42,577 nucleotides of DNA from a virus. The DNA is taken from the IMG/VR virus record IMGVR_UViG_3300028837_000409, positions 1 to 42,577 of that record; one strand, written 5' to 3'. Position 1 is the stretch's first letter. Every line of letters begins with the position of its first letter. The notes beneath the pieces are model-generated. The model searched no databases and had not been told where the DNA came from. It was given only the letters and a program-made list of their open reading frames with translations. Shown here in pieces: positions 145 through 42,577 of the stretch. The position numbers were made by a program, and so were the translations under genes.

Positions 145-387
145 TGCCTGCATTACGTTAATACATCACCCAAACTAATACAAGAGGATATTCTGGTTTT
201 CAGGAAGAGTGGCAACGGAGGCATAGTCGATGAGGTGGTTATGAGCCCGCCTTACTCTGAACAATCGGATTTTCGGTTGAAAGGTGGATTGCGGAATGGT
301 TCAAACGTTAGGAATGTGTGCCACAAATTTGGACAAGTTAACAACATAGGCAACCTCCCTTATGGTGAGATAGATAAGGTGATATGA
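1..387 (+). CDS. multi-SPPY DNA methyltransferase, C-terminal part (continues from the right end)
   Basis: This is the last 128 codons of the gene that starts at 40676; reading frame 1 is open from base 1 to the TGA at 385-387. It contains EDILVFRK, which resembles the usual C-terminus of this methyltransferase type. After it comes an additional module with a fifth catalytic-type motif (MSPPY, SPPY codons at 244-255), ending in NIGNLPYGEID, which also occurs upstream of other SPPY motifs in the same protein. The gene stops just where the next TSPPY would be expected, so the last module looks truncated. An internal ATG at 103 is not a separate start. The next gene overlaps the stop codon. Confidence 0.85.
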   Translation, partial: TIQLQKCDHRRGSKQNPKCTLGLSCPVQQAKQADMFGKTEDGQAMESLCLHYVNTSPKLIQEDILVFRKSGNGGIVDEVVMSPPYSEQSDFRLKGGLRNGSNVRNVCHKFGQVNNIGNLPYGEIDKVI

Positions 388-2067: not shown

Positions 2068-2165
2068 TATATCCACCTAAACTTAGCGAGGCTGGCTTGG
2101 TTACTAGGAGCGGGAACACATCTCATAGGAACTGTGAAAACGGGACAAGAGGAACACCTAGGTGA
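2064..2165 (+). CDS. possible small protein (33 aa)
   Basis: The ATG overlaps the stop of the helicase-loader gene (ATGA at 2064-2067), and the frame ends at TGA 2163-2165, two bases before the next short ORF. The product begins MIYPPKLSEAGLV and has no recognisable motif. It is supported only by the overlap arrangement, so it may be spurious. Confidence 0.25.
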   Translation: MIYPPKLSEAGLVTRSGNTSHRNCENGTRGTPR

Positions 2166-2167
2166 AA

Positions 2168-2263
2168 ATGAGCCAAGCGAGAAGCAAGCGATTGGTGGAT
2201 TATGCTGGCTACCTGAAAGGGCAGATAGACAGACAGGAGAGGAAGGTGGACACGATATGGTAA
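2168..2263 (+). CDS. small basic/charged protein (31 aa)
   Basis: The ATG follows an AGGTG motif, and the short helical product ends RQERKVDTIW. Its stop overlaps the start of the next gene (ATG at 2257), which fits the overlapping style of this operon. No family is recognised. Confidence 0.4.
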   Translation: MSQARSKRLVDYAGYLKGQIDRQERKVDTIW

Positions 2264-2451
2264 AGCATAGTGAAATGTATCATGCGCCTCTCCCGCTGGT
2301 AGTCGGGAAAAGGTCAAGTGAGAGAGAGACTCACATGTGGTCGAATCATCATACCACACTATTGTCCTATACAATTAATAAGGCGAGACTACTAGCCAGC
2401 AAAGTTGGGGGTTGCCAGTGCGTAAGTCCTGTGGAACTGGACGCAGTATGA
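2257..2451 (+). CDS. hypothetical protein (64 aa)
   Basis: I place the start at 2257, which has a GGAAGGTGG ribosome site a few bases upstream. An in-frame start at 2134 would overlap two short ORFs. The product contains two histidine-rich patches (HSEMYH, SNHHTT) and two cysteines near the C-terminus (GGCQC). No family is recognised. Its stop overlaps an ATG at 2448 that is one possible start of the following gene. Confidence 0.4.
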   Translation: MVKHSEMYHAPLPLVVGKRSSERETHMWSNHHTTLLSYTINKARLLASKVGGCQCVSPVELDAV

Positions 2452-2507
2452 CAGGGTGCTCAAAGCCGAAAGGTAGGCAACCTCCAATGAAAGGAGGTAG
2501 CGAACGG

Positions 2508-2702
2508 ATGACTTGGATTGAATTAGTGAAAGAGTATTTCCCAGACGCATCAGATAAGGAGTGTGATGCTATCTTGTGGGGAGAGACGGGCTTCCCAGAC
2601 TTTTGGAATATCCCAGAAGATGGTGATACACCCGAGGCATGTTGTCGAAAGCAGTTGCAGCAATTGAAGGATAAGATAGCGAAGAACAAGGCAAAGAGAT
2701 GA
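2508..2702 (+). CDS. small acidic conserved-type phage protein (64 aa)
   Basis: The ATG at 2508 follows an AGGAGGT site. An alternative in-frame ATG at 2448 overlaps the previous stop (ATGA) and would add 20 residues. The product has an acidic N-terminal half with ECDAILWGETGFPDFW, a pattern seen in small phage proteins of unknown function, and a basic helical C-terminus. Its stop overlaps the HNH gene start by 4 nt. Confidence 0.5.
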   Translation: MTWIELVKEYFPDASDKECDAILWGETGFPDFWNIPEDGDTPEACCRKQLQQLKDKIAKNKAKR

Positions 2703-3142
2703 TTAAGACAAGAAAGAAACGAACCGAACGACAGAAGATGATACCCCACCTGGATGGTCTGTTTCGGGAGTTTATCCGAAAGAGGGCGATGCTTAGGGCT
2801 GGTGGCTGTGAAAGGCCAGAGTGTCGACATCCCCAAAAAGTCTCGTATTTAGAACTGGACACAGCACACAATGAGAGCCGTGTTCATAGGTGCACTCGAT
2901 GGGATGAGGACAACGCATTAGGTTTGTGTGGTGGCTGCCACAGATTTATTGACCGTGAGCGCAAAGAGAAAGAGAAGCTATTTGTAGGGAAGATAGGGCA
3001 AGCAGCGTATGACAGATTGGATTTGCTTGCTCATACCCACTGCAAACCTGATTACGCAGCTCTCGAAATCTATCTTAGACAGAAGATAGAGGAACTTCAA
3101 GAGGCGATAAGTGTGGATAAGGGATGGAAAGATGACGATTAA
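2699..3142 (+). CDS. HNH-type nuclease, NinG/Rap-like (147 aa)
   Basis: The protein has a CERPEC cysteine pair, then LDTAHNESRVHRCTRWDEDN and LCGGCHRFID, ending in a helical region. This order (CxxxC, AH, tRWD-DNa, LCxxCH) resembles phage NinG/Rap-type HNH proteins, which act on recombination or Holliday intermediates in lambdoid phages. It sits in the early replication operon next to the helicase loader, as ninG does relative to replication genes. A free-standing HNH endonuclease is the main alternative. Confidence 0.6.
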   Translation: MIKTRKKRTERQKMIPHLDGLFREFIRKRAMLRAGGCERPECRHPQKVSYLELDTAHNESRVHRCTRWDEDNALGLCGGCHRFIDRERKEKEKLFVGKIGQAAYDRLDLLAHTHCKPDYAALEIYLRQKIEELQEAISVDKGWKDDD

Positions 3143-3254
3143 ATTTTATTGGTGGCCAGATTGGGAATGGTCGATGTCAAGGCATGAAGGCATAAGGATA
3201 AATTACTTTAGCATGAATCTTGGGCGTCTCGAGATAGTAATCTTTGTGAGTTAA
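3132..3254 (+). CDS. small tryptophan-rich protein (40 aa)
   Basis: The ATG lies 11 nt inside the end of the HNH gene, and the frame runs to TAA at 3252-3254, five bases before the methyltransferase start. The product begins MTIKFYWWPDWEW and ends in the hydrophobic strand LEIVIFVS. No family is recognised, but the fit between neighbours supports it. Confidence 0.45.
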   Translation: MTIKFYWWPDWEWSMSRHEGIRINYFSMNLGRLEIVIFVS

Positions 3255-3258
3255 TAGC

Positions 3259-3948
3259 ATGAACTGGAATAATCTACAGCTACCAGATAATCCGTATTAC
3301 TCCGATGAGGCTGTAGTGATATACAACGCTGATTGCAGAGACATCCTGCCTTTGATACCTGACAAGAGTGTGGACTTGGTGCTGACTGACCCGCCTTATG
3401 GTATAGGATTCTCTGAATATCTATCGTATCGGGATAAGGAATTGGATTACCATCGATTCCTATGGCAGATACTTGAAAGATGTGAAGCAACTATTGTGAA
3501 TGGTTGGATGTGTGTTTTTCAAGCTGGGAAGCAATGTACTGAGTGGCATATTACTATCCCGCGTAATTGGCGAATAATATCCTGCCCAAAGACCTTTGTG
3601 CAATTATATCAAGTGCATGGGCCAACATGGGCGACTGATTTTGCTTTGTTGTGGGAAATAGGCAATGCAATTCAAAGAGGAAAGGGAAGAGATTGGATAG
3701 TTTCTGATACGGCTAATATGAAATTTGACCGTGGGCATCCTTGCGCTAGACCAGAGGGCCAGATTAGCTACCTTGTCGAAATCTTATCAGAATCAGATGA
3801 TTTAGTCCTAGACCCCTTCCTTGGCTCAGGAACAACCGCCTACTGTACCAAGAAGCTAGGCCGCAAGTGCATTGGGATTGAGATAGAGGAGAACTACTGT
3901 GAGATTGCGGCGAAACGATGTTCCCAAGGAGTGTTATTGACAGCATGA
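3259..3948 (+). CDS. DNA (N4-cytosine/N6-adenine) methyltransferase, Dam/beta-like (229 aa)
   Basis: The catalytic motif TDPPYG (about 43-48) lies near the N-terminus, and the AdoMet-binding motif LDPFLGSGTT (about 184-193) near the C-terminus, followed by GRKCIGIEIEENYCEIAAKR. This order is that of beta-class amino-methyltransferases such as MboII-type and CcrM. No restriction endonuclease gene is adjacent, so it is an orphan enzyme. Likely roles are protection of phage DNA from host restriction or control of its own replication. The target sequence cannot be read from the protein. Confidence 0.85.
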   Translation: MNWNNLQLPDNPYYSDEAVVIYNADCRDILPLIPDKSVDLVLTDPPYGIGFSEYLSYRDKELDYHRFLWQILERCEATIVNGWMCVFQAGKQCTEWHITIPRNWRIISCPKTFVQLYQVHGPTWATDFALLWEIGNAIQRGKGRDWIVSDTANMKFDRGHPCARPEGQISYLVEILSESDDLVLDPFLGSGTTAYCTKKLGRKCIGIEIEENYCEIAAKRCSQGVLLTA

Positions 3949-4352
3949 TAGCAACGATGGAATTATTAAACCGAGAGCCTACAAGTTCCGACTTCGATGG
4001 CTACCAGGAGTTGGCAGCGGAGGTCTTGAAAGGGGCAGCAGAGGATTGGATAGACCCATCCCGGAGCCCTCATTCTAAGAATGACTTTGCGCCTAGCCGT
4101 CTTGACATTTTCGATTTTGTTTACAGTAAGCGATTTACCTTATTCGTGGCGTGCCTTGATTGGGTCAAAGATATTGAGGTAGAGAGAAAGTCATTTAGGA
4201 AGAGGCTATTAGCACTGCTGAAAAAGGGAGAGAGAAACAGGCTGATACGCGAAGGCTACGATACCGGTATGAGCCTAGAGCACTTGGCTTTGATGTTCGG
4301 AAAGAACAGAGAGGCTATACGTTCAGTGATAAGGAGGAGCGGTAATGGATGA
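3945..4352 (+). CDS. hypothetical protein with HTH-like C-terminus (135 aa)
   Basis: I choose the ATG at 3945, which overlaps the methyltransferase stop (ATGA). An upstream in-frame ATG at 3918 would overlap by 31 nt. The C-terminal ~45 residues, with RLIREGYDTGMSLEHLALMFG followed by basic residues, look like a helix-turn-helix. The N-terminal part is acidic and helical. A DNA-binding regulatory role is possible but not demonstrated. Confidence 0.5.
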   Translation: MIATMELLNREPTSSDFDGYQELAAEVLKGAAEDWIDPSRSPHSKNDFAPSRLDIFDFVYSKRFTLFVACLDWVKDIEVERKSFRKRLLALLKKGERNRLIREGYDTGMSLEHLALMFGKNREAIRSVIRRSGNG

Positions 4353-4533
4353 TGGATGCCTAAAATCCTTTGATTGGGCATTTGAGAAGGATATCCCATT
4401 GCCCCAGTTTACAGTCGAGCTTGCCCTGCGAGCAAAACACGAAAGGGAAGTAATTATGGCACTGGTAAAGCTCTGCAGAGAAGCAGGTTTACAGATTAGT
4501 GATATTGCGATAATACCAAAGGAGGGAAAATGA
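4345..4533 (+). CDS. hypothetical protein (62 aa)
   Basis: The ATG lies 8 nt inside the previous gene, and the stop overlaps the next ATG (ATGA at 4530-4533). The product is mostly helical, with ALRAKHEREVIMALVKLCRE in the middle. No recognised family. Confidence 0.5.
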   Translation: MDDGCLKSFDWAFEKDIPLPQFTVELALRAKHEREVIMALVKLCREAGLQISDIAIIPKEGK

Positions 4534-4841
4534 CTAAACAGGAAGAGGTACAGGAAGGGTACGCTAGATTCTTATATGAGCGTACTGAACATGATGGGAG
4601 GTACTGTGCCAAAAACTATGATGACTTGAAGAATAAGGAGTTCTGGCTATGGTTAGCGTATCAACACTTAGAATACCTCCACGCTCAGGGGGTGGTGATA
4701 GTGGATAGGGAATTGCCTTATGCTCAGACTAATATTAGGGGTAATAAGGATTGGGAAGAGGGATTTGAGCATGGCACTTGTTTAGAAAGACATAATATGC
4801 TCCAAGCTGGTTATGTAGCATTGATAAAGGAGGAGAAATGA
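4530..4841 (+). CDS. hypothetical acidic protein (103 aa)
   Basis: Coupled on both sides by ATGA overlaps (4530 and 4838). The product is acidic and aromatic-rich, including KEFWLWLAYQHLEYLHAQG and FEHGTCLERHN. No family is recognised. Confidence 0.5.
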   Translation: MTKQEEVQEGYARFLYERTEHDGRYCAKNYDDLKNKEFWLWLAYQHLEYLHAQGVVIVDRELPYAQTNIRGNKDWEEGFEHGTCLERHNMLQAGYVALIKEEK

Positions 4842-5029
4842 GTGATTTACAAGAAACGCTAAGAGCTGCAACTAGACCTATAGTAACGGTACTCTTCGCC
4901 ATTGCCATTGTCTTTGTTGTGGTAGCTCAGATTGATGCGCCAGCATGGTTTATCAGCCTGGCTATCCCTATCATCCTCTGGTGGTTTGGCGAAAGAACAG
5001 TTAAAGCTATTAAGGCAAAGGGGGAATGA
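4838..5029 (+). CDS. small two-helix membrane protein (63 aa)
   Basis: After a short charged N-terminus there are two hydrophobic segments (about 14-33 and 36-52, with IVTVLFAIAIVFVVVAQID and WFISLAIPIILWWFGE) and a basic C-terminus ending KAIKAKGE. Size and topology are compatible with a holin-like protein. However, it lies in the early operon rather than beside a lysin, so the function is open. The GGAGAA ribosome site lies in the end of the upstream gene. Confidence 0.5.
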   Translation: MSDLQETLRAATRPIVTVLFAIAIVFVVVAQIDAPAWFISLAIPIILWWFGERTVKAIKAKGE

Positions 5030-5032
5030 ATA

Positions 5033-5590
5033 ATGGACAAGATTGAGAGCATCCTGAATGAATACGATTGGCGGTGTGAGTATGAATTGTCACTTAATAA
5101 GACTCAATCTGCTCATGCCAGACAAATTTGTAGTGATTTAATAGACCAAATCTGCCAGCTATTTGAGACTGAGGCTGAGGAGAGCAGGTTGCTGACAGTG
5201 TGCCAGGAGGAGATTGGAAAACGAGATAACTATATTGATTACCTAAAAGAATCTCTTAAGGATATGGTTTGGCAGTTCGGCTATAAGAACGTGAAGGACG
5301 GTAAGCCTGTTATCCATACTGCTGGATTGAGTGCGCTAGAAAGTGCCTTTGAGGCATTAGGGTGGGACGATCCTAAGTACTTACCTGAAGAAGGATCTAC
5401 CTGTGAGATTCAAGGCTGTTTTGAGACAATTGCCCTTGGCACTTATTGGGGTGATGGTCTTTATCTACATCTTTGCTCTAAACATCACGGAGATTATTGC
5501 CGAGGGAAAGAAAGACCACCAGTAAAGCAATACGCCCTTGATAGAGAAGCTAAACGGGGGCCTGACGGCATATTAAAGGGGGATAAATGA
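5033..5590 (+). CDS. hypothetical protein with C-terminal cysteine/histidine cluster (185 aa)
   Basis: The N-terminal ~100 residues are helical and rich in Glu and Lys. The C-terminal half contains STCEIQGCFETIALG, then LHLCSKHHGDYC, a probable metal-binding cluster. No family is recognised. The stop overlaps the next start (ATGATG at 5587). Confidence 0.5.
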   Translation: MDKIESILNEYDWRCEYELSLNKTQSAHARQICSDLIDQICQLFETEAEESRLLTVCQEEIGKRDNYIDYLKESLKDMVWQFGYKNVKDGKPVIHTAGLSALESAFEALGWDDPKYLPEEGSTCEIQGCFETIALGTYWGDGLYLHLCSKHHGDYCRGKERPPVKQYALDREAKRGPDGILKGDK

Positions 5591-37080: not shown

Positions 37081-37119
37081 ATGGGCAGAGCTAAGAGGGA
37101 ACGGAGGAATAGGAAATGA
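37081..37119 (+). CDS. possible 12-residue basic peptide
   Basis: MGRAKRERRNRK; ATG 7 bp after the previous stop, with its TGA overlapping the next ATG (ATGA at 37116-37119). It may serve only to couple translation of the next gene. Confidence 0.3.
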   Translation: MGRAKRERRNRK

Positions 37120-37691
37120 AAGCATATCGGTTTGTGACTGATGACCTGAAGAGCCAGCACGGGGACACACGGTGGGTTGTTGGTGAGTGGCAGAAGTGTG
37201 AGGGCAAGTTGGGGTTATGCGCGAATGGCCTCCACGCCTCGAAGAAACCACTTGATAGCCTCAATAATGTGTTTGGCACACGCTGGTTTCTGTGTGAGGT
37301 TAGGGGTAAGGTTTTGGAGGGCAGAGACAAGCTCTGTGCTGAAGAAATGCGTATTCTACAAGAGATTCCCTTATCTATCGTTGTGCAATTCGCTGCTGAT
37401 TGTGCAAAACGAGTTGAGCATTTACAAAACAGTACTGCTACTTCGAATGCCTGGAGGGCTGCTGCTTGGGCTGTTAGGGAGGCTGCTTGGGCTGTTGGGG
37501 AGGCTGCTGGGGAGGCTGCTGTGAGGGCTGCTGGGGAGGCTGCTGCTGGGGCTGTTAGGGAGGCTGCTTGGGCTGTTGGGGAGGCTGCTGGGGAGGCTGC
37601 TTGGGAGGCTGCTTGGGAGGCCGAGCGCAAATGGCAGAATAGACACTTCGTAAACTTAATTAGGAAAAGTCTAAAGTCAACGGAGGAATAG
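37116..37691 (+). CDS. DUF7666-like protein with Ala/Gly/Trp tetrapeptide repeats (191 aa)
   Basis: Residues 1-105 contain KLGLCANGLHASKKPLDSL, a CEVRGKVLEG strand and EEMRILQEIPLSIVV, the pattern of DUF7666-type phage domains (a Cys-x-x-Gly-hydrophobic-His-Ala core). Residues about 110-170 are tandem four-residue units of the AVGE/AAWA/AAGE kind, then a short basic end (KWQNRHFVNLIRKSLK). The protein at 38600 has the same plan with different repeats. The repeats would form a long amphipathic helix. Function unknown. Confidence 0.55.
   Translation: MKAYRFVTDDLKSQHGDTRWVVGEWQKCEGKLGLCANGLHASKKPLDSLNNVFGTRWFLCEVRGKVLEGRDKLCAEEMRILQEIPLSIVVQFAADCAKRVEHLQNSTATSNAWRAAAWAVREAAWAVGEAAGEAAVRAAGEAAAGAVREAAWAVGEAAGEAAWEAAWEAERKWQNRHFVNLIRKSLKSTEE
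37441..37622 (+). repeat. 12-bp tandem coding repeats (GAGGCTGCTTGG-type)
   Basis: About fifteen imperfect 12-bp units rich in GAGGCTGCT and GGGCTGTT. The DNA is repetitive at nucleotide level, unlike the ancient 60-bp array, so copy number should change easily by slippage or unequal recombination. Confidence 0.85.
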
Positions 37692-37716
37692 GAAATAAAC
37701 AAAAGGGGGGACAGAG

Positions 37717-37941
37717 ATGAAACAGTTAACAGCGGAAACACAAGACGAAGTCAGGGCAATTGCGCCTACGTATGGGAACATGCCAGCAGAATCAAAGGGT
37801 ACGGTCTACACGCCGGAAGCACAGATAGAAGCTCTGGTGCGAATAGCTCAGGCAGCAGAGAAGGTAGCGTCTATCTTGGCTGCTTGGGATAACGGTGCGA
37901 GAGTCCTAAGCGTAAGGGTAAGCAATCTTAAGTATTTCTAA
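37717..37941 (+). CDS. hypothetical protein (74 aa)
   Basis: An AAAGGGGGG ribosome site precedes it. Product has a Gln/Glu/Ala-rich helical middle (EAQIEALVRIAQAAEKVASIL). No family recognised. Confidence 0.45.
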   Translation: MKQLTAETQDEVRAIAPTYGNMPAESKGTVYTPEAQIEALVRIAQAAEKVASILAAWDNGARVLSVRVSNLKYF

Positions 37942-40600: not shown

Positions 40601-40631
40601 ATTGACTCTATATTCCTCCTTTCGTTGGGAC

Positions 40632-40670
40632 GGGGCAGTAGTCATTCGACCAATTACTGCCCCACTTTTT
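40632..40670 (+). terminator. strong intrinsic terminator
   Basis: GGGGCAGTA (40632-40640) and TACTGCCCC (40655-40663) form a perfect 9-bp stem, followed by ACTTTTT. It lies 32 bp after the previous stop and ends only 6 bp before the methyltransferase ATG, so that gene must rely on readthrough, circular-genome context or an unseen promoter. Confidence 0.9.
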
Positions 40671-40675
40671 GAATA

Positions 40676-42577
40676 ATGCAAGTAAAGTTTAGGAGTGATA
40701 CCAAATACAGAAAGGAATGGTTGACGGGGTTACACTTTTCGCACCCGGCAAAAATGCACCTGTCCCTTCAGCTTTGGTTGGTTAATAGATATACCAAGCC
40801 TGGTGATGTGATCCTTGACCCGATGGCTGGGTCTGGCACGATTCTAGTAGCCTGCTCTATGGGGAGGGATGTCATAGCTGTTGAATTGGAGGACAAGTTT
40901 GTGAGGATGATGGAGGGCAACTGGCAGAAGATTCAACAAAGAGGGCCACAGCTAGGGTACCAGATGGGACAAGCCACAATCTTGCAAGGCGATGCTAGAA
41001 AATTAGAAGGAGTGTGTGACCAGATAATCACGAGCCCGCCTTATGCCGAAAGTGAAGTTGCCCACGATCCAAATTTCAATTACCAACGCAATGGCAAGAA
41101 AGATTGGGGTATTTCGATGAGCTACAGAGTAGATAATCCCTCCAACATCGGCAACCTTCCCTATGGTGAGATAGACAAGATAATCACCTCACCGCCCTAC
41201 GAAGGGACTATTTCGCCACACGATGTAGGGCCGATTCGCGGGACAGGCAAAGTTGGAAGACGAGAGGATAGACGGCAAGGTTATTCCGTTGACGCTGTGG
41301 TAACAAGCCCGCCTTATACAAACCGCATGGATGGCGGTATAAGAGGCGCTCAGGCTGGCATGGTTCCTTATACAGATGAATCCCCCGATTCTTGGTTCAC
41401 ACAACGAGACCAGAAGAACATTGGCAACCTACCCTACGGTGATATAGCCGACTGTGTGATAACGAGTCCACCATACGGTTTAGGCGAAGGTCTTGGGCAT
41501 TCCGAGGCCACGCAGGGCCGAATACGCAAAGACAAATACGCTAGTTGCTTATACGGCCAGTGTGAAGGACAAATCGGCAACCTAAAGGGGGGAGATATTG
41601 ATGCCATTATTGCTAAAGATAAGTTTACCAACATTGCTAATAAGTGCTATAATATAGACAAATGCCTACTGGAGTTTATCCTAGAACCGAAGAGAACCAA
41701 AGAAAGCGAACTGAAGCCTTGCGAGCCAAAAGAGCAGGCGGGTGGTCAAACGCTTGGAAACACAAGTGTCAAGATTGTGGGCATAAAATTGATAGACGCT
41801 CAACAATCTGTAAATCTTGTAGCCAGCGAAAACGAATGCTTGGGAAGCCCTTATCTGAACAGCATAAAGCAAGCCTTCGTGAACATCATAAGGGAATGCT
41901 GGGCAAACGACATACAGTTCAAGCAAGAATTAAAATGTCTATCGCCCTCCTTAAAGGTAGAGAACCTAGAACTCCTCTTAACAAACGCTATCACAACACA
42001 CCTGAATGGCGAGAATGGCGGAAACAAGTCTTTGAACGAGATAAATATACCTGCCAACTTTGTAAAGCAAAATCTAAAAGAGGGCAAACTGTATATCTTG
42101 AGCCACATCACATTTTCTCAATTGCTGAATACCCAGAACTTGTCTTTGAAGTCTCTAATGGATTTACCCTCTGCCGAGACTGCCACAATAAAACAAAAGG
42201 CGACAAAGGAAAGTCAGAACTCGCCAAACTACTTATCCGAAATGTTGGCGGTATACAAAGAGTGTTGGAAGTGCCTCAAGCCTAGTGGCTTACTCATTTT
42301 AGTCCTCAAGAACTTCATCCGAGACAAGAAGATTATAAGGCTAGACCTCGACACTATGAAACTATGTCAGCAAGCAGGGTTCGTCTTAGAAGAGCAGCAT
42401 TACAGGAAGCTAACTCAACAATCCTTCTGGCGGACGATTCAATTACAGAAATGTGACCACCGCAGGGGCAGTAAGCAGAATCCGAAATGTACTCTTGGTT
42501 TAAGCTGCCCAGTACAACAGGCTAAGCAGGCTGACATGTTCGGGAAGACGGAAGACGGTCAAGCTATGGAAAGCCTA
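40676..42577 (+). CDS. multi-SPPY DNA methyltransferase, N-terminal part (continues at base 145 to 387)
   Basis: Open from ATG 40676 to the window end and, through the terminal repeat, to TGA 385-387: 714 codons. The AdoMet motif is LDPMAGSGT (about 47-55). Catalytic-type SPPY motifs are at residues about 120, 172, 211, 264 and 668, most in modules of the form GNLPYGEID-xx-ITSPPY. Residues about 329-517 are encoded by DNA that also encodes the HNH endonuclease in another frame. Conserved methyltransferase sequence resumes at YLSEMLAVYKECWKCLKPSG and ends with NFIRDKK, then EQHYRKL. Motif order (I then IV) fits alpha/gamma-type amino-methyltransferases. The ATG has no clear ribosome site and sits 6 bp after a terminator. 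Confidence 0.8.
   Translation, partial: MQVKFRSDTKYRKEWLTGLHFSHPAKMHLSLQLWLVNRYTKPGDVILDPMAGSGTILVACSMGRDVIAVELEDKFVRMMEGNWQKIQQRGPQLGYQMGQATILQGDARKLEGVCDQIITSPPYAESEVAHDPNFNYQRNGKKDWGISMSYRVDNPSNIGNLPYGEIDKIITSPPYEGTISPHDVGPIRGTGKVGRREDRRQGYSVDAVVTSPPYTNRMDGGIRGAQAGMVPYTDESPDSWFTQRDQKNIGNLPYGDIADCVITSPPYGLGEGLGHSEATQGRIRKDKYASCLYGQCEGQIGNLKGGDIDAIIAKDKFTNIANKCYNIDKCLLEFILEPKRTKESELKPCEPKEQAGGQTLGNTSVKIVGIKLIDAQQSVNLVASENECLGSPYLNSIKQAFVNIIRECWANDIQFKQELKCLSPSLKVENLELLLTNAITTHLNGENGGNKSLNEINIPANFVKQNLKEGKLYILSHITFSQLLNTQNLSLKSLMDLPSAETATIKQKATKESQNSPNYLSEMLAVYKECWKCLKPSGLLILVLKNFIRDKKIIRLDLDTMKLCQQAGFVLEEQHYRKLTQQSFWRTIQLQKCDHRRGSKQNPKCTLGLSCPVQQAKQADMFGKTEDGQAMESL
41624..41653 (+). promoter_or_regulatory. 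promoter candidate for the nested HNH gene
   Basis: A perfect TATAAT (41648-41653) with TTTACC (41624-41629, 4 of 6 matches) 18 bp upstream. Eight bases separate the -10 from the ATG at 41662, so the message would be leaderless or nearly so; no ribosome site is present. The boxes lie inside the methyltransferase frame. Confidence 0.5.
41662..42285 (+). CDS. HNH homing endonuclease with NUMOD3-like motif, nested in the methyltransferase gene (207 aa)
   Basis: Begins MPTGVYPRTEEN, a typical start of phage free-standing HNH homing enzymes. A zinc-ribbon-like segment (C36, C39, C50, C53) is followed by two NUMOD3-like basic DNA-binding units (GKPLSEQHKASL, GKRHTVQARIKMS). The HNH domain reads CQLC (131-134), EPHHI (148-151), NGFTLCRDCHN (166-176), with all expected residues. 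It is read in a frame different from the host gene, and the host frame is open throughout. Its last ~14 codons use the conserved methyltransferase sequence. This fits a mobile gene inserted into a conserved site. Confidence 0.85.
   Translation: MPTGVYPRTEENQRKRTEALRAKRAGGWSNAWKHKCQDCGHKIDRRSTICKSCSQRKRMLGKPLSEQHKASLREHHKGMLGKRHTVQARIKMSIALLKGREPRTPLNKRYHNTPEWREWRKQVFERDKYTCQLCKAKSKRGQTVYLEPHHIFSIAEYPELVFEVSNGFTLCRDCHNKTKGDKGKSELAKLLIRNVGGIQRVLEVPQA
42434..42577. repeat. terminal direct repeat, right copy
   Basis: Identical to bases 1-144. The methyltransferase frame enters the repeat in phase and, read on from base 145, ends at 387. The unique circular length is 42,433 bp. Confidence 0.95.

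Follow-up and report, generated by a model that had tools for sequence, protein, structure and literature searches.

The analysed window, a circular phage contig of 42,577 nucleotides with a direct terminal repeat of 144 bp, also encodes an integrase, a large terminase, a GP7-like capsid protein and a helicase-loader, and these genes suggest that its source is probably a temperate tailed phage. A DNA methyltransferase ORF runs to the end of the contig (40676..42577, + strand), and an HNH endonuclease gene (41662..42285, + strand; 207 amino acids, ATG to TAG) lies wholly within it, out of frame. The open frame at 40676..42577 supplies codons 1–634 of 714; because the contig carries the 144-bp terminal repeat, the frame resumes directly after it, across the circular join, at 145..387 (+), and joining the two segments recovered the 714 residues given in the earlier note. 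The methyltransferase TGA overlaps the ATG of the next gene (ATGA). The 145..387 segment holds an extra SPPY unit ending NIGNLPYGEIDKVI, beyond the usual C-terminus of these enzymes, and in the closest C-terminal homologue (L033) similar sequence is present on either side of the circular join, with a matching C-terminal extension.

The upstream part of the methyltransferase (40676..41613, +) comprises motif I (DPMAGSGT) and four SPPY units and ends with IGNLKGGDIDAII, while the conserved downstream part (42230..42451, +; YLSEMLAVY...SFWRTI) displays 59–70 % identity to homologues. The protein matched the Pfam family N6_N4_Mtase (PF01555, E 1.3e-18) and would be expected to have methyltransferase activity. 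It was 46–58 % identical overall to 20 homologues of 315–496 residues from other viral contigs. A structure model predicted an ordered core, with low confidence for residues 120–458. No matches were obtained when viral contigs were queried with the full-length methyltransferase, by blastn against phages, or when the methyltransferase alignment and the HNH protein were searched in bacterial and archaeal genomes.

Alignment to homologues lacking the HNH gene, which the earlier note had proposed as a check, was used to set the borders of the insertion. In the 20 homologues the variable middle of the protein ends in NIGNLK(G/S)x and is followed directly by YLxAMLxVY; in the window, the order at this site is QIGNLKGGDIDAII, then the insert, then SPNYLSEMLAVY. 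The insert extends from approximately 41614 to 42222, give or take a few codons. It begins with a leader (41614..41661, +) that is 75 % AT and open in the methyltransferase frame, its left border being uncertain by a few codons, and only about 48 bp of the insert fall outside the HNH ORF. At the other end, dual translation compared with the homologue alignment showed that conserved methyltransferase DNA supplies the stop of the HNH gene and roughly the 20 codons before it (approximately 42223..42285, +; NYLSEMLAVYKECWKCLKP). The insert was absent from all 20 homologues, with the flanks conserved on both sides, and none of them is split at this site. A second methyltransferase scan, using the C-terminal domain, returned the same viruses and no other carrier, leaving one carrier genome for this insertion, and no close copy of the HNH gene was found elsewhere. 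Read in the methyltransferase frame, the insert matched no Pfam family. The segment of about 190 residues is thus, as originally proposed, not an ordinary methyltransferase domain, being missing from the homologues and without a family in that frame.

The insertion falls in the stretch linking motif IV to the conserved helix that follows. This span ranges from 69 to 228 residues in the homologues and reaches 399 in the window, or about 195 once the insert is subtracted, so that, judged from the aligned sequences, the insertion fell in a region that is already hypervariable in the family. The upstream flank includes GDIDAII, the usual lead-in to another TSPPY unit, and the insert therefore probably replaced or interrupted the last such unit. 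The enzyme may therefore be altered, having apparently lost this unit through the insertion.

The nested gene is a complete HNH gene, as first described, with an exact 207-codon ORF offset by 2 nt relative to the methyltransferase frame. The Pfam models HNH and HNH_2 both scored above their cut-offs (HNH, PF01844: 22.2 bits against a gathering cut-off of 21.4), and PHROG HNH families matched with E-values down to 1.4e-16. All positions invariant among 22 HNH relatives are retained. The earlier description of intact zinc, catalytic and NUMOD3-like residues held for the zinc and catalytic positions, whereas NUMOD3 was matched only below threshold (E 0.045). AlphaFold predicted a core with pLDDT of about 95, and the nearest PDB structure was the GVE2 HNH endonuclease (5h0m, E 3e-3). 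A fortuitous HNH match was rejected on the basis of the PHROG E-value of 1.4e-16 and the intact motif. The protein is a putative homing endonuclease that would confer mobility on its gene.

The methyltransferase frame is unbroken across the HNH gene, with no stops, while the third sense frame has 26. The earlier note had cautioned that this DNA is poor in stops and that antisense frames are also fairly open; the latter did not hold, the antisense frames of the HNH gene being closed by 6, 9 and 11 stops, and the former was addressed with control HNH genes. Approximately 68 full-length relatives of the HNH gene in other viruses, a set that leaves out two zero-stop extraction fragments of 18 and 4 codons, each contained at least six stops in the corresponding frame, and their longest open run was 82 codons compared with 206 here. 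A Poisson fit to 64 control HNH genes, with length and GC as predictors, gave 11.7 expected stops for the nested gene and a probability of zero stops of 8e-6 (~1e-5). Elsewhere in the phage, none of 1017 windows of 187 codons from other genes had an open alternative sense frame of either kind. Synonymous recoding with phage codon usage gave 5.9 expected stops and an open frame in 0.06 % of 5000 trials (P 0.0006), while reshuffling the HNH gene's own codons left the frame open in 19 % of trials. The openness of the frame therefore stems mainly from the codon choice of the nested gene. Leu, Ile and Val codons ending in TA or TG, together with Met, are the only codons from which a stop codon can begin in the other frame; the share of such Leu, Ile and Val codons is 27 % in the nested gene, whereas related HNH genes average 60 %, and a share this low recurs in only 1 of 64 controls. 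Given the 19 % of own-codon reshuffles that stay open, this codon bias could have another origin, and since openness was the reason for choosing this case, the statistics need discounting for selection, although the margin remains large. The open methyltransferase frame is very unlikely to be due to chance. Selection for dual coding is its best reading, because at 43 % GC a second frame would very seldom stay open for 200 codons.

We looked for a Shine–Dalgarno sequence before the HNH ATG and found none, whereas most genes of this phage carry a purine-rich Shine–Dalgarno-like sequence. The AT-rich leader does contain a promoter-like site (41624..41653, +) that consists of TTTACC, an 18-nt spacer and the extended -10 element TGCTATAAT (41645–41653), which ends 8 nt upstream of the HNH ATG. 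The site is a consensus match only, was noticed after the fact and presumes a sigma-70-like polymerase in the host; when the leader was shuffled by dinucleotides, a -10 element was comparably placed in 0.1 % of the shuffles. If used, this candidate promoter might yield a near-leaderless transcript starting within about 3 nt of the HNH ATG, a lead that could be tested as an explanation for the translation of hidden HNH genes, which the published work left open.

A comparable arrangement was first reported in 2025 in mycobacteriophages. The ShiLan domain is an HNH gene lying out of frame in a mycobacteriophage methylase (ShiLan gp65) with no stop in the host frame; it spreads between divergent methylases, and no intron or intein was detected (Arsenault, Gosselin and Gogarten 2025, PMC11855218). 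The same authors described a second, unrelated hidden HNH-like insertion in Pacc40 gp60, for which they regard the HNH assignment as less certain (PMC11855218). Like ShiLan, the window has an out-of-frame HNH of about 200 codons within a phage DNA methylase whose frame is stop-free, and the HNH has the same offset (2) to its host frame; in neither case was a Shine–Dalgarno sequence, intron or intein found. The two differ in methylase family and site, HNH class (HNH_3 in ShiLan, HNH/HNH_2 here), start codon (GTG against ATG) and GC content (65 % against 43 %). The ShiLan HNH stop lies at the end of the insert, whereas here about 20 codons of conserved host sequence precede it, and a disjunct distribution was shown for ShiLan, as opposed to one carrier here. 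BLAST detected no similarity between either the HNH proteins or the host-frame segments of the two, and with the difference in HNH class this points to an independent origin. The Pacc40 insertion likewise arose independently and lies out of frame in a phage methylase; its frame relationship to the host is the same and the host frame has no stops over 159 codons, but the host is a helicase–methylase fusion with a GC content of 63 %. Four features of the ShiLan type, namely an insert absent from homologues, a stop-free host frame, an HNH in an alternative frame and no intron or intein signature, are all found in the window, which on sequence grounds is an independent case of the published arrangement and not a new category.

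In ShiLan, Pacc40 and the window alike (three of three), the HNH lies in one common frame relative to its host. Across 63 HNH genes, the density of stops was 0.068 per codon in this shared host frame and 0.126 in the other sense frame, and this roughly halved density offers a simple reason why the shared frame survives. Under the same recoding test ShiLan gave P 0.04, which makes the window the stronger statistical case. Beyond the published cases, what is new here comprises the open-frame statistics, the shared frame with a likely explanation for it, the candidate promoter and the hypervariable insertion region.

We consider it probable that the phage methyltransferase gene was invaded, out of frame, by a mobile gene for an HNH homing endonuclease, that both frames were kept and that the HNH is separately translated and promotes homing; the complete HNH gene, its out-of-frame nesting and the unbroken methyltransferase frame all stood up to analysis. 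The ribosome would read the methyltransferase straight through, adding about 200 probably unstructured residues that would be tolerated where the family already varies by 69–228 residues. Both proteins would thus be made from overlapping frames, the HNH from its own ATG, most likely via the short near-leaderless transcript from the extended -10 promoter or, alternatively, by internal initiation. The HNH would then cut uninvaded methyltransferase alleles, and its gene would be copied in by repair.

Homing endonuclease genes are known to split their hosts, as documented for mobE in nrdA of phage Aeh1 and mobA in T4 gene 60 (PMC2988022). These resemble the window in that an HNH homing gene sits, intron-free, inside a working phage gene, but the host genes there are split into separate coding regions. 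A methyltransferase made in two separate pieces, its open frame being incidental, could use the in-frame ATG at 42242 (EMLAVY), which opens the conserved C-terminal part, as a possible restart. We nevertheless regard this as unlikely, since the host here is a single continuous frame and not two ORFs, the insert length keeps the methyltransferase frame, and an open frame across the insert would be unneeded, yet about 12 expected stops are missing. Very unlikely, in our judgement, is that the openness is the luck of a recent HNH insertion with unusual codons, only the HNH being expressed and the methyltransferase dead. The own-codon reshuffles and the choice of the case for its openness speak for such luck, but no control HNH gene comes near a stop-free frame, the conserved methyltransferase motifs are intact on each side of the insert, and the methyltransferase stop at 387 still overlaps the start of the next gene.

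Removal of the insert as an unrecognized intron or intein seems more improbable still. In the methyltransferase frame the last residue of the insert may be N, with S next to it (SQN|SPNY), as at intein borders, and a similar border feature exists in ShiLan (PMC11855218); here, though, the borders are uncertain, and neither intein motifs, a Pfam intein profile match nor any splicing-domain sequence was found in the host frame. For an intron, Rfam returned no match at E-values up to 5, the HNH ORF nearly fills the roughly 600 bp and leaves no space for a ribozyme core around it, and an open frame would be unnecessary. These results agree with the earlier note, in which neither element was seen.

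The probable out-of-frame insertion with both frames retained extends the hidden-HNH arrangement beyond GC-rich mycobacteriophages, where stops are rare anyway, to a 43 % GC gene, so that the arrangement recurs in an unrelated phage. If selection for dual coding is the correct reading, a homing gene can live within a host gene by means other than splicing. A more general model is tentative and, in our view, rather doubtful: out-of-frame homing genes might be recurrent splicing-free mobile elements confined to the +1 sense frame (the host reading HNH codon positions 2-3-1), with stops purged by selection, insertion tolerated in methyltransferase loops, and an own promoter giving a near-leaderless mRNA.

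The methyltransferase family (window 41000–41600 and 145–387; L013–L035) displayed variation of its own. Between motif I and the C-terminal part, members carry one to five 'SPPY...(NIGNLPYGxID)' units of 33–92 residues each, and distinct unit types reappear across viruses in differing order and number, as if they were shuffled cassettes with a repeated catalytic motif IV. No description of methyltransferases with repeated TSPPY motifs turned up in a literature search, and this variation is possibly more novel than the nested HNH. One homologue (L023:3971-5227) has an in-frame, helix-turn-helix-like insert (DILRARRHPYEDLWLKYPKLDFATIKSIRRHNKLPLKNAR) close to its GDAR motif, and another (L035:3971-5356) has about 100 additional residues in the N-terminal domain; a near-identical sequence (L037:3971-5356) contains a single in-frame stop at 4565–4567. 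Contig L022 encodes tandem methyltransferase paralogues (2097–3083 and 3935–5077) that differ in their SPPY units.

Elsewhere in the window, a terminator-like element, made up of an apparently perfect inverted repeat (GGGGCAGTA...TACTGCCCC) and a T run after it, lies directly upstream of the methyltransferase ATG (40631–40670), and two long ORFs overlap on opposite strands (37091–37741, −; 37116–37688, +), the latter matching DUF7666. Contig L005 carries two HNH genes (2595–3167 and 4108–4728) scattered among structural genes, the first of which comes after a huge serine-threonine-repeat ORF.
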